Shown here one piece after another: positions 4,190 to 20,221 of a stretch of DNA of 37,932 nt; the stretch's first letter is position 1, and each line of letters opens with the position of its first letter. A model generated the notes under the pieces. That model had not been told where the DNA came from, searched no databases, and saw only the letters and a list, made by a program, of their open reading frames with translations. Source of the stretch: a virus. The stretch spans positions 1 to 37,932 of IMG/VR virus record IMGVR_UViG_3300025806_000074; one strand, written 5' to 3'. Made by a program: the position numbers and the translations under genes.

Positions 4190-4747
4190 ATGGCTGATAT
4201 GGAAGTGGGTGGCGTAAAGTTTTCTGGCTTTGGCAAAATCGGTATTGCAGTAACAGCATTAAGTACACTAGCTGGCTCTGCATACGTTGGTTATGAGTTT
4301 TATTTTGATTACCTCGACTTGCGCGAAGTGGTGCAGGAAATAGACATAGATGAGATCAAAGCTCAAAACGAGTTGGTTTTAACAAAGCTGGATGACGCTA
4401 TTGTCTACACCAGAGACATTAAGAACAACCTTAGAGATGACCTGCTTAAACTAGAGGGATACATTGATAAGTTGGAGAAGAAGATTGAAACATCTTCAGA
4501 GCGTATAAAGACTACACAAGGCTCTATAGACTTAGTGTTAGAAGATGTTCTTAATGAAATGAACCAAGTGCAAAAAGACGTGACATCTGCAATAAGAGAG
4601 GTTGAAACGTTAAATAGGGAGACAGAGAAGGATGTTCGTGATACAATGCGAGAAGTAGAGAATAGAATAGAAAAAGACATGAATAAACTTGAAGATAAGT
4701 TAAATGAGCGTTTGCAAGAGGCTCTTGACAATCCATTGTCTAATTGA
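4190..4747 (+). CDS. Membrane-anchored long coiled-coil protein
   Basis: A 185-residue protein preceded by AAGGAGAAG, a strong ribosome binding site. One membrane segment lies at about residues 16-38 (GIAVTALSTLAGSAYVGYEF). The rest is almost entirely a charged heptad-repeat helix of roughly 140 residues. Topologically it resembles an inner-membrane spanin or other envelope-spanning rod, and its position directly before the EF-hand membrane protein, holin and endolysin fits a lysis function. However it lacks family-specific spanin signatures, so the role is inference. Confidence 0.7.
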   Translation: MADMEVGGVKFSGFGKIGIAVTALSTLAGSAYVGYEFYFDYLDLREVVQEIDIDEIKAQNELVLTKLDDAIVYTRDIKNNLRDDLLKLEGYIDKLEKKIETSSERIKTTQGSIDLVLEDVLNEMNQVQKDVTSAIREVETLNRETEKDVRDTMREVENRIEKDMNKLEDKLNERLQEALDNPLSN

Positions 4748-4759
4748 GGAAGTTAAGTT

Positions 4760-4822
4760 ATGATTATTATTATGAACATACTTTTGACATTGGCTATCTT
4801 AGATTCAGCGGGGATTATTTAA
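4760..4822 (+). CDS. Possible 20-aa hydrophobic peptide
   Basis: A very short frame encoding MIIIMNILLTLAILDSAGII, nearly all hydrophobic and able to span a membrane once. GAGGAAG lies 7 nt upstream of the ATG, and it fills exactly the gap between the coiled-coil gene and the EF-hand gene. At this size chance cannot be excluded. If real it would be a single-pass membrane peptide of the lysis cassette. Confidence 0.35.
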   Translation: MIIIMNILLTLAILDSAGII

Positions 4823-4825
4823 CAA

Positions 4826-5149
4826 ATGGGTAAAAAACTACAGGAAAATAGTAAATACGCAATGGCAGATGCCGATGGCGACGGAATTATAACTGATGAT
4901 GAAATGGATCGTCACGAAAGATGGATACGACTGGAGAATGAGGACAAGTTAGCTGATACGCAACGTATGATGGCGTGGATTGCAATGGTTGTGACGATTG
5001 TGGCGGTCATTGTCTTATTAACGCCAGTTGTCGCAATTGACAGAGTTGCCACTGCGTCAGGTTTCTTAAATACATTTATTGTAGCTCAATTAGGAGTTGT
5101 TGTTGGTTTTATGGGGGCAACAGCCTTATCTAAAACTAAGTTAAAATAG
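4826..5149 (+). CDS. EF-hand membrane protein (holin-like)
   Basis: A 107-residue protein. Near residues 15-26, DADGDGIITDDE is a complete EF-hand calcium-binding loop. Two membrane helices follow (about residues 50-70, MAWIAMVVTIVAVIVLL; and about residues 80-102, LNTFIVAQLGVVVGFMGATA). The start is 3 nt after the tiny upstream frame. Two-helix proteins with cytosolic termini next to a holin and endolysin often act as holins, antiholins or pinholins. Calcium binding by such a protein would be unusual, and the sequence does not show whether Ca2+ gates it. Confidence 0.75.
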   Translation: MGKKLQENSKYAMADADGDGIITDDEMDRHERWIRLENEDKLADTQRMMAWIAMVVTIVAVIVLLTPVVAIDRVATASGFLNTFIVAQLGVVVGFMGATALSKTKLK

Positions 5150-16987: not shown

Positions 16988-17848
16988 ATGGGATTAAATA
17001 TTATAACTGCCGATCAACGTATGGCAGAAAAAAGAGGTCATAAGATTGTTGTGTGTGGTCCTAGCGGAGTTGGTAAAACAACTCTTGCTAGAACATTAGA
17101 CTACGATAGCACGTTGTTCTTTGATCTCGAAGCTGGAGATGCAGCTATTGAAGGTTGGCCTGTCGATGTTATCAGACCTAAAACCTGGGGGGAGTGTCGA
17201 GACTTTGCGTGTTTTTTGGGTGGTCCTAATCCGTCACTGGCAGAAGACCAGCCATACGGTAAATCACACTTTGATTATGTTTCGTCTATCTACGGTGAGC
17301 GTGAAGAAGTAATGAACAAGTATGATACTTTGTTTATTGATTCTATCACGGTTGCCGGACGCTTATGCTTTCAATGGTGTCAACAACAGCCAGAAAGCAG
17401 ATCAGATCGTACAGGCAAGTTAGATACAAGATCAGCCTACGGTTTACATGGTCGTGAGATGATGGCTTGGCTGACACATATACAGCACATTCGAGAGAAG
17501 AACGTAATCTTTGTTGGTATCTTAGATGAAACAACTGATGATTATAATCGTAAGCAATATGCTTTACAAATTGAAGGCTCGAAGACAGGTCGTGAATTGC
17601 CAGGCATTGTGGATGAGATTATCACCATGTCTATTTTAACTGGCGAGAATGGACCCTACAGGGCTTTTGTGTGTCAGGCATTAAATGAGTGGGGTTATCC
17701 AGCTAAGGATCGCTCTGGTCGTCTTGACGTGCTTGAAGAGCCACACTTGGGTAAACTTATTTCTAAAATGGGGAGCGGCAAACCCCAACCAACTGTTTTT
17801 GTCGATCCTAAAACACAAACACCAAAAGAGGAGGTGAACAATGATTAA
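16988..17848 (+). CDS. Sak4-like RecA-fold ATPase (AAA_24), single-strand annealing/recombination
   Basis: A 286-residue protein with Walker A GPSGVGKTT at residues 24-32 and a hydrophobic strand ending in Asp (YDTLFIDSIT, about residue 115), consistent with Walker B. RELPGIVDEIITMSI in the later part is typical of this family. It matches Sak4-type phage proteins: short RecA-like core ATPases that pair with an SSB-like protein to anneal or recombine single strands. It overlaps the downstream SSB-like gene by 8 nt, exactly the expected pairing. It probably acts in recombination-dependent replication and double-strand-break repair. Confidence 0.85.
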   Translation: MGLNIITADQRMAEKRGHKIVVCGPSGVGKTTLARTLDYDSTLFFDLEAGDAAIEGWPVDVIRPKTWGECRDFACFLGGPNPSLAEDQPYGKSHFDYVSSIYGEREEVMNKYDTLFIDSITVAGRLCFQWCQQQPESRSDRTGKLDTRSAYGLHGREMMAWLTHIQHIREKNVIFVGILDETTDDYNRKQYALQIEGSKTGRELPGIVDEIITMSILTGENGPYRAFVCQALNEWGYPAKDRSGRLDVLEEPHLGKLISKMGSGKPQPTVFVDPKTQTPKEEVNND

Positions 17849-18458
17849 TTTAAATGAAGTGCAGCCAGAAACAGGTCAGATGGAAAGAACTTTAATTCCA
17901 CTTGGCACAGTAGCGAGAGCAACTATCTTAGTGAAGATGGGTGAAACATCAATCCCTGAGTTTGGAAACGGTCAGTGGTTTAAAGCATCTCAATCATCAT
18001 CTGCAAAGTGGATGGAACTAGAGTTTACTATTATTGGTGGTCAGTTTGATCGTCGTAAGTTCTGGGATAGGATCTTTGTTGATGGCGATAAGATGGGTCA
18101 GAGTGGTATTCCGTTAGCTAAAGAGATTGGTTTGCGTACTTTGCGTTCAATTATTGAGAGTGCAAATAGTTTAGATCCAGCAGATATGTCTCCAGAAGCT
18201 CAGTCTCGTCGTCAGATTTCTGGCGTAGACGCTTTGACTGGCATGGAGATTTGTGCCAAGGTAGGTATTAAGAAGGGAACAAATGGTTATGATGATCAAA
18301 ACAAGCTCATGGTAGCATTGACACCAAACCAAAAAGAGTTCATTCCTTCAGGTAATTACGCTACTCAGCAGGTGCAACAACCAACGCATCAGCCACAGGC
18401 ACAGGCTCAGACACAACCCACATCGAATGGGCCTGTGCCTAGTTGGGCAAATAAATAA
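17841..18458 (+). CDS. Single-stranded DNA-binding protein-like (Sak4 partner)
   Basis: A 205-residue protein preceded by GAGGAGGTGAACA. The first 125 residues look like an OB-type beta domain with a helical segment (KWMELEFTIIGGQFDRRKFW, then GIPLAKEIGLRTLRSIIE). The C-terminal 45 residues are a disordered Gln/Pro/Thr tail ending PVPSWANK. A globular domain with a flexible Gln-rich tail is the layout of SSBs, and the 8-nt overlap with a Sak4-type ATPase supports the call. It resembles the DUF669-type phage proteins that occupy this position. The acidic SSB tip is not obvious here. Confidence 0.65.
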   Translation: MINLNEVQPETGQMERTLIPLGTVARATILVKMGETSIPEFGNGQWFKASQSSSAKWMELEFTIIGGQFDRRKFWDRIFVDGDKMGQSGIPLAKEIGLRTLRSIIESANSLDPADMSPEAQSRRQISGVDALTGMEICAKVGIKKGTNGYDDQNKLMVALTPNQKEFIPSGNYATQQVQQPTHQPQAQAQTQPTSNGPVPSWANK

Positions 18459-18459
18459 T

Positions 18460-18541
18460 CTAGCGGCAGGACTCTTGGTTGTCTGCTAGAAACACGGAAC
18501 GGGGGGCCGTGAGCCGCTAACCCCCCAACTTTCTAGTAGCG
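18460..18541 (+). ncRNA. Structured intergenic RNA candidate, nested double pseudoknot
   Basis: The gap between the SSB-like and helicase genes can form four pairings at once. P1 is TAGCGGC (18461-18467) with GCCGCTA (18513-18519), 7 of 7. P2 is CTGCTAGAAA (18483-18492) with TTTCTAGTAG (18530-18539), 10 bp with one G-U. P3 is CACGG (18493-18497) with CCGTG (18507-18511). A GGGGGG loop (18501-18506) can pair with CCCCCC (18521-18526). The order P1-P2-P3-P3'-P1'-P2' is the HDV-type nested pseudoknot. An alternative fold exists with CTAGC (18460-18464)/GCTAG (18485-18489) and CGCTA (18515-18519)/TAGCG (18537-18541) hairpins. The helicase ribosome binding site (AAGGA, 18543-18547) follows immediately, so translational control is plausible. 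Confidence 0.6.
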
Positions 18542-18553
18542 TAAGGAAATCAA

Positions 18554-20221
18554 ATGTTATTAAGACCCTATCAAGAGGTCGCTGTGTCAGATGCGTCAAC
18601 AGCCTTAGACAAACACAGCAACACAATCGTAGTAGCGCCCACAGGGGCTGGAAAAACTATTATGATGTCTGCCTTGATTGGTAAGAGGCATAAAGAAGGA
18701 AAGCGTGTCCTGGTTCTACAGCATAGAGATGAGCTGGTAGAACAAAACAGCATTAAATTTAATAAAGTAAATCCATACATTACCACCAGTATTGTTAATG
18801 GTACGATAAAACACTGGGAAGGTGATGCAGTCTTTTCTATGGTTCAAACCATGTCAAGGGATGCCAACTTACGAAACCGACCTAAATTTGATATGGTTGT
18901 CATAGACGAGAGCCACCATGTTGCAGCAAGAACATACCAAAAGATAATTGATGCAGTTCGAGAAGACAACGAAAACGCTGAAATTGTGGGCTTTACAGCC
19001 ACTCCTAACCGTGGAGATAGGAAAGGGTTAAAGAGTGTCTTTAACAACTGCTCACATCAGATTGAATTAACTACATTAATTCGTGAAGGGTTTTTAGTTA
19101 AGCCAGTTGCCTACGTTATTGACGTTGGTGTGCAGAGCCAATTAGGAGAAGTCAGGCGACTTGCTAATGATTTTGACATGGAACAAGTTGAAGCGATTAT
19201 GAACCGCACCATTATTAATGAGCGTGTTGTTAAAGAATGGTTAGAAAAGGCTTCAGATAGGAAGACCGTTGTATTTTGTTCTACTATTCGCCATGCAAAT
19301 GATTTGCTTGATGAGTTCATTGCTAATGATATTAATGCAGAAATTGTAACTGGAGAAACGCCATCTGATGAACGTGCGGATATTTTGCACAGTTTAGAGT
19401 TTGGTCATGTTCAAGTTGTCATCAACGTAGCTGTTTTAACTGAAGGCTTTGACGCTCCACCTGTTTCGTGCATTGTGCTTACAAGACCATGCTCATACAA
19501 ATCCACAATGGTGCAGATGATTGGTCGAGGTCTGCGTATCATTGACCAAGAGGTACATCCTGGACTAATTAAAAAGGATTGCATTGTTTTAGACTTTGGC
19601 ACCAGTATTTTAACGCATGGTGCTTTGGATGAGAATGTAAACTTAGATGGCGCTCCAGAAAACCCTAATGCAGTTGGTATAGATAAGCAGTGTCCAGAGT
19701 GCGATTTTATTATTCCAGCCAACTCAAGAGTATGTCCTAACTGTGGTCATGGTTTTGAGGGCATTGCCAAGTCTGAGCTATCTGACTTCTCATTAACAGA
19801 ATACGATCTTATGCAGCTATCTCCGTTTAGGTGGCTGGACATCTTTGGAAATGGCTCTTGTATGATGGCTACAGGCTTTCAAGGTTTTGGTATTGTCGCA
19901 ACAATAGATGATACCTCAGTAGCCATTGTTAAGTCTAAGCATGGTAAGTTGAGAGCAGTTTCCATTGGCGCTCGTGTTCAGGCAACATCTGCAGCGGATG
20001 ATTTTCTTCGAGAGATCGAAGATGGTAATGCAGCTAACAAAACAAAAAGGTGGCTTTCACAAAATCCATCTGCTTTACAGTTGCAACATTTAAAATCAAA
20101 TGGCGTTACTGTTAGCCCAATGGATTTCTCCTGGGATAAGTATAAGGCTGCTTGTTGGTTAAGTTATCTTTGGAACAAAAATGACATTGATAGAATGGTG
20201 GAGGAAATAAATTATGAATAG
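18554..20221 (+). CDS. SF2 DEAD/DEAH-type helicase with zinc finger
   Basis: A 555-residue protein. RPYQ at residues 4-7 (Q-motif-like), Walker A APTGAGKT at 28-35, motif II DESHH near residue 117, motif III GFTATP, and a C-terminal helicase domain with VVINVAVLTEGFDAP and motif VI MIGRGLRI make this a superfamily-2 helicase of the DEAD/RecG/UvsW-like class. A four-cysteine zinc finger follows (CPECDFIIPANSRVCPNCG, about residues 379-397), then an extra C-terminal domain of about 150 residues. It likely unwinds or remodels branched DNA during replication and recombination. It is preceded by the structured intergenic element and overlaps the next gene by 8 nt. Confidence 0.9.
   Translation: MLLRPYQEVAVSDASTALDKHSNTIVVAPTGAGKTIMMSALIGKRHKEGKRVLVLQHRDELVEQNSIKFNKVNPYITTSIVNGTIKHWEGDAVFSMVQTMSRDANLRNRPKFDMVVIDESHHVAARTYQKIIDAVREDNENAEIVGFTATPNRGDRKGLKSVFNNCSHQIELTTLIREGFLVKPVAYVIDVGVQSQLGEVRRLANDFDMEQVEAIMNRTIINERVVKEWLEKASDRKTVVFCSTIRHANDLLDEFIANDINAEIVTGETPSDERADILHSLEFGHVQVVINVAVLTEGFDAPPVSCIVLTRPCSYKSTMVQMIGRGLRIIDQEVHPGLIKKDCIVLDFGTSILTHGALDENVNLDGAPENPNAVGIDKQCPECDFIIPANSRVCPNCGHGFEGIAKSELSDFSLTEYDLMQLSPFRWLDIFGNGSCMMATGFQGFGIVATIDDTSVAIVKSKHGKLRAVSIGARVQATSAADDFLREIEDGNAANKTKRWLSQNPSALQLQHLKSNGVTVSPMDFSWDKYKAACWLSYLWNKNDIDRMVEEINYE

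Follow-up and report, generated by a model that had tools for sequence, protein, structure and literature searches.

Several known RNAs, some of them beside genes for single-stranded DNA (ssDNA)-binding proteins, come close to the element considered here. In a 2010 review, T4-type gene 32 is the only case named as a viral pseudoknot in translational autoregulation: the mRNA of gp32 has a pseudoknot in its leader, to which gp32 binds (PMC3014915), and this operator is a simple H-type pseudoknot located 5' of its own gene. The STAXI motif (Weinberg 2010, PMC2864571), a tandem array of two to three pseudoknots from Enterobacteriales, occurs near SSB and other DNA-manipulating genes. Short nested double pseudoknots are known from HDV-like ribozymes, in which a U and a G of loop 3 (U23 and G28) are invariant (PMC3386971), and the phage HDV-like ribozymes, called theta ribozymes, lie beside tRNAs (PMC10879173). 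Lastly, the 3' ends of stabilized operon segments in E. coli coincide with stable hairpins that lack U tracts (Dar and Sorek 2018, PMC5927463), and the same work cites the puf intercistronic stem-loop.

The window, which is the whole of a 37.9-kb virus record, contains a Sak4-like gene, an ssb-like gene and a helicase gene in one operon segment (Table 1). The ssb-like stop (18458) and the helicase start (18554) are separated by 95 nt, a gap that is conspicuous because the other gene neighbors in the operon nearly abut. The first protein matched Pfam AAA_24 (E value, 1.6e-44) and the Sak4-like family PHROG 124 (8.9e-48), and the helicase matched Pfam ResIII/Helicase_C and the DNA helicase family PHROG 16 (6.4e-97). 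The second protein had no match in a Pfam search; its designation as SSB-like comes from an AlphaFold model (pLDDT of 79) with the ssDNA-binding protein PrgE as the best PDB match (8s4s; E value, 2.9e-5). This model is closer to PrgE, a conjugative-plasmid protein, than to a classic SSB, and the PSWA tail is conserved. Gene order suggests that the ssb and helicase cistrons share one transcript. No intrinsic terminator, defined as a U run behind a GC-rich hairpin, was found between positions 18300 and 18700, and no promoter match was found at the RNA locus.

Table 1. Genes and RNA parts at the ssb-helicase boundary of the window
Feature	Position	Strand	Remarks
Sak4-like ssDNA annealing ATPase gene	16988..17848	+	First in local operon segment
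Gene for SSB-like protein with OB fold and PSWA tail at the C terminus	17841..18458	+	Stop codon 18456-18458
S1, H1 5' strand UCUAGC	18459..18464	+	Directly after ssb stop codon; H1 covariation
PK1 5' strand GGC, bulge of H1/H2 stem (inner HDV-like P1)	18465..18467	+	Pairs with 18513-18515
H2 hairpin, stacked on H1, loop variable	18468..18484	+	
S2, H1 3' strand GCUAGA; doubles as optional P2 5' strand	18485..18490	+	
H3 (P3) 5' strand CACGG	18493..18497	+	Covariation
PK2 5' strand, G6 in H3 loop	18501..18506	+	Covariation
H3 (P3) 3' strand CCGUG	18507..18511	+	Covariation
PK1 3' strand GCC	18513..18515	+	P1 extension 18516-18519 in window
PK2 3' strand C6	18521..18526	+	Covariation
S3, optional third CUAG strand	18530..18539	+	With 18483-18492 makes HDV-like P2
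Shine-Dalgarno AAGGA of helicase	18543..18547	+	Sequence
Superfamily 2 helicase gene, downstream of RNA	18554..20221	+	

The strands of the RNA follow one another in the order S1, PK1a, H2 hairpin, S2, H3a, PK2a, H3b, PK1b, PK2b, S3 (where present) and Shine-Dalgarno sequence. Folding of the single sequence gave an unremarkable minimum free energy of -27 kcal/mol (z = -0.5); since this energy is uninformative, the proposed structure was tested by comparison of homologues. IMG/VR searches with the helicase, the SSB and a pattern, together with one genome scan, yielded some 490 loci. Counting the window, 267 of the first 408 sequences contain the RNA according to an HMM, as 96 unique 88-nt forms, and more divergent relatives exist beyond these. 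Each of the 267 contigs carries a single copy. An apparent second copy in one sequence (G007), a weak match of 17 bits, proved false on reading of the sequence.

When 60 unique forms were aligned with plain MAFFT, 92% of the helix cells were paired and two-sided changes were present at 16 of the 20 pairs. None of 500 shuffles matched this result, and slid controls were only 42 to 56% paired. A covariance model fitted to H1 and H3 only recovered 68 homologues, and the two pseudoknots left out of the fit were paired in 100% (PK1) and 94% (PK2) of their cells. The number of pairs with two-sided changes rose to 18 of 20, PK1 included, in a set of 34 divergent forms (0 of 500 shuffles), with H3 changing on both sides at all six of its pairs. 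PK2 showed such changes at 6/6 pairs, the variants being GGGUAG:CUACCC, GGGAAG:CUUCCC, GAGGGA:UCCCUC and GGGGAG:CUCCCC, while PK1 occurred among the homologues as GGC:GCC, CGC:GCG, GUC:GAC and CUC:GAG. When the most divergent loci were scanned with a descriptor, true hits scored 22.3 to 25.5 and reversed-sequence controls no more than 21.2; the scan returned PK1 as GUC:GAC and CUC:GAG, PK2 as GGGAAG:CUUCCC and H1 as GCAAG:CUUGC. Pairing is built into this descriptor, and the independent statistic is that of the 34 divergent forms. This covariation proves four helices, H1 (CUAGC/GCUAG), H3, PK1 and PK2 (G6:C6). In addition, pairs 16-17/32-33 of H2 covary in the A3 homologue alignment. The non-Watson-Crick letters within the helices of well-aligned rows include 13 G-U and no A-C combinations; therefore, the sense strand is the folding strand, and a DNA-structure or antisense reading is ruled out. 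Unpaired positions vary widely, and few unpaired bases are conserved.

The initial annotation of this locus had described a double pseudoknot in HDV order, and each of its pairings is present in the sequence: P1 (18461-18467/18513-18519; 7 bp), P2 (18483-18492/18530-18539; 10 bp with one G-U), P3 (5 bp; H3 in Table 1), a G6:C6 loop pairing (PK2) and a competing CUAGC/GCUAG stem (18460-18464/18485-18489). The HDV order is borne out for P3, for G6:C6 and for the inner 3 to 5 bp of P1, but not for the outer P1 pairs, which vary. A covariance search for compensatory changes, suggested there for P1, P2 and P3, returned them for P3 and the inner P1, as well as for G6:C6 and H1, but not for P2. P2 had been taken as a defining helix, a role that it loses, as S3 is missing in many lineages and the covariation-backed helices do not include P2. 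Conversely, the stem that had been presented as a competing fold is the conserved and covarying H1, and the idea of strand competition among S1, S2 and S3 survives.

Among the 68 homologues, PK1 reaches 3 bp or more in almost every row and 5 bp or more in 49; P1 is limited to 3 bp in 18 of the 68 rows and throughout a whole clade. S1 has two possible partners, either S2, with which it forms H1, or the P1 extension, which uses its last two bases. S2 and S3 can pair over at least 5 bp in most rows and not at all in several lineages, and S3 is absent from the L021, L040, L278, L290, L393, L317/L366, L409 and L410 lineages. When the next gene is swapped, S3 stays with the RNA (L240 versus L241 and L297). 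S3, which repeats CUAG near the Shine-Dalgarno sequence in most lineages, could displace S1 from S2 to form P2. A naive sum of helix energies, which counts helix terms alone, favors P1 plus P2 in the window and in 34 of the 68 homologues and favors H1 plus PK1 in 17.

With the strand order P1-P2-P3-P3'-P1'-L3 pairing-P2' in the window, P1 plus P2 as its energetically best fold by this naive sum and minimal HDV-like ribozymes occurring in phages (PMC10879173), a self-cleaving ribozyme that would cut the operon mRNA just 5' of P1 has to be considered. The RNA indeed shares with HDV-like ribozymes, minimal phage theta ribozymes included, its short size, its phage occurrence and the nested topology of P1, P3 and a loop-3 pairing, and PK1, H3 and PK2, which build this topology, covary. 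However, the loop-3 pairing is 6 bp long, compared with the very short P1.1 of HDV-like ribozymes, and the P1 of about 7 bp and the P2 closed by the 3' strand are not family traits here: P1 is conserved over 3 to 5 bp, and P2 is optional and mostly replaced by the upstream H1. Loop 3 of the window reads AACGGGGGG and has no U, at odds with the invariance of U23 and G28 (PMC3386971), there is no association with tRNAs, and conserved unpaired bases are few. No HDV family was among the Rfam matches up to an E value of 10. Membership in the HDV ribozymes thus fails, and the RNA is probably not a self-cutting ribozyme; we consider HDV-type cleavage at the 5' edge of P1, with a catalytic C in J4/2, highly improbable. 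The conserved order with S1 as P2' would correspond to a circularly permuted HDV fold, a likeness of geometry and not evidence of catalysis. A permuted fold of this type with S1 and S3 exchanging on S2, one state of which would cut or gate the operon mRNA, seems just as improbable.

Wherever the surroundings of an RNA were read, it lies after ssb and before the helicase, always in the same Sak4-ssb-helicase operon. An extra gene separates the RNA from the helicase in L040, L044, L049, L241, L272, L297, L298 and the MKTYE group, and these genes overlap the helicase start or end within a few nucleotides of it; in L439 and L440, the number of extra genes at this place is two. On the other side, one gene lies between ssb and the RNA in L409, and in the L410 clade ssb is followed by two genes and a G/T-rich stretch and then by the RNA directly before the helicase, with about 500 nt between the last stop codon and the RNA in L410. 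A strict 3' element of ssb is refuted by the L409 and L410 clade, in which the RNA is one to two genes beyond ssb, and a pure helicase leader is refuted by the genes inserted between the RNA and the helicase. Frameshifting, readthrough or bypass was also rejected, as both ssb and the gene after it carry a stop, a Shine-Dalgarno sequence and a start of their own, and neither the type of stop nor the spacing is constant. Insertions on both sides occur without loss of the RNA; therefore, a boundary element is likelier than a sensor of one stop or one start.

The ssb-helicase interval is a gene-insertion hotspot, in which at least five different sets of genes have entered before or after the RNA (L040, L049, L241, L314, L409, L410 and L439). 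G/T-rich repetitive stretches of several hundred bases precede the helicase in L437 (2320-2970), L442 and L410 (about 4443-4953).

The gene arrangement bears on a translational operator in the style of T4 gp32, with free SSB binding the pseudoknot, spreading over the next ribosome site and repressing the helicase unit. Nearly all homologues have the SSB-like gene immediately upstream, about 17 nt separate the end of the RNA from the helicase Shine-Dalgarno sequence in the window, and gp32 itself binds a leader pseudoknot (PMC3014915), which among pseudoknots next to the ssb gene of a phage is the closest precedent in function. However, the gp32 operator is a simple H-type pseudoknot in front of its own gene, whereas this RNA has two pseudoknots and follows ssb and precedes the helicase unit, at a distance of one to two genes from ssb in the L409 and L410 clade, and no conserved A+U-rich tract was identified. 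We regard such an operator as unlikely. STAXI is alike in being a pseudoknot RNA near SSB and other DNA-manipulating genes but differs in architecture, and the RNA has no Rfam match.

Less likely still is a translation-coupled bistable switch, in which the ribosome finishing ssb would cover S1 and free S2 for S3, changing access to the helicase site. S1 begins about 1 nt past the ssb stop in roughly half of the unique forms, and 0 to 4 nt past it in most, both S2 and the P1 extension are possible partners of S1, S3 accompanies the RNA, and the naive energy sum prefers P1 plus P2 in half of the 68 homologues. Against this, roughly one unique form in four has 11 to 18 nt between stop and H1, in addition to the long spacing in L410, many lineages are without S3, and S2:S3 is not among the helices backed by covariation.

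Comparison of homologues shows the fold, its conservation, its strand and its location at the operon boundary, and from these we infer, with a probability of roughly 0.4, as the most likely role that of a cis-acting boundary or expression-balancing element between the operon halves. The element, about 70 nt of sense-strand mRNA, folds as a nested double pseudoknot, in which the bulge of the H1/H2 stem and the loop of H3 each pair downstream. Its predicted action in cis is that of a mechanical boundary within the early recombination and replication mRNA. By blocking exonucleases or otherwise, it would insulate the Sak4-ssb part from the helicase part, such that one transcript would give much SSB and little helicase. 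In lineages with S3, exchange among S1, S2 and S3 near the ribosome site may in addition gate the next gene, a role that the position of S3 near the Shine-Dalgarno sequence suggests. Pairing is kept and unpaired sequence is not, which fits a shape or mechanical element, and a boundary role would explain the tolerance of gene swaps on both sides, the conservation of pairing and the absence of a terminator. Operon decay barriers (PMC5927463) are the nearest mechanistic precedent for such a role: like the puf stem-loop and the Dar and Sorek hairpins, the RNA is stable, free of a U tract and intercistronic, on a transcript deduced to be shared from gene order. Those structures are simple hairpins, whereas this RNA is a conserved, covarying double pseudoknot. 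Besides the hint of gating from S3, two findings speak against a boundary. In most lineages, H1 starts about 1 nt past the stop and would be opened by the terminating ribosome, an odd arrangement for a 3' barrier. Moreover, one clade (L437, L442 and L450) keeps the operon, with a G/T-rich stretch before the helicase, and the descriptor scan found no RNA there.

Compact double pseudoknots are frequent in small riboswitches. For this RNA, a ligand-binding riboswitch or a trans-acting small RNA is nevertheless very unlikely, as the unpaired positions vary widely, promoter and terminator matches were not found, and the operon context is always the same.

The RNA is a new structured family that is apparently undescribed: Rfam gave nothing at the gathering score for the window or 12 loci, and a literature search found no description of the element, an absence that is not proof. 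A strongly covarying family with an HDV-like nested double pseudoknot would thus be new to a widespread group of uncultivated phages. As a second pseudoknot next to an ssb gene of phages, and one that nature offers in hundreds of variants, it makes the expression logic of a recombination operon testable. In annotated phage isolate records, there was no DNA match to the RNA, and relatives of the SSB were only distant, in Wolbachia and Megaira phages. The genome scan gave two matches in metagenome-assembled bacterial genomes, L297 (WTIQ01000492.1), binned as Rhodobacteraceae, and L298 (JARGOI010000355.1), binned as Thalassolituus. Both contigs carry the operon and the RNA, and the binning hints at a host or at mis-binning.

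The pattern-search hits are mostly another recurrent element. This is a long hairpin, GTGTGTGGGGG(G/A)CACAGGGCCGC(A/T)CCCCCACAC, with matched changes at its ends and a fixed loop, and it is present in L083, L085, L086, L088 and dozens of other pattern-search loci on many phage contigs. It is located just upstream, on the opposite strand, of an open reading frame beginning MALITLSELK.
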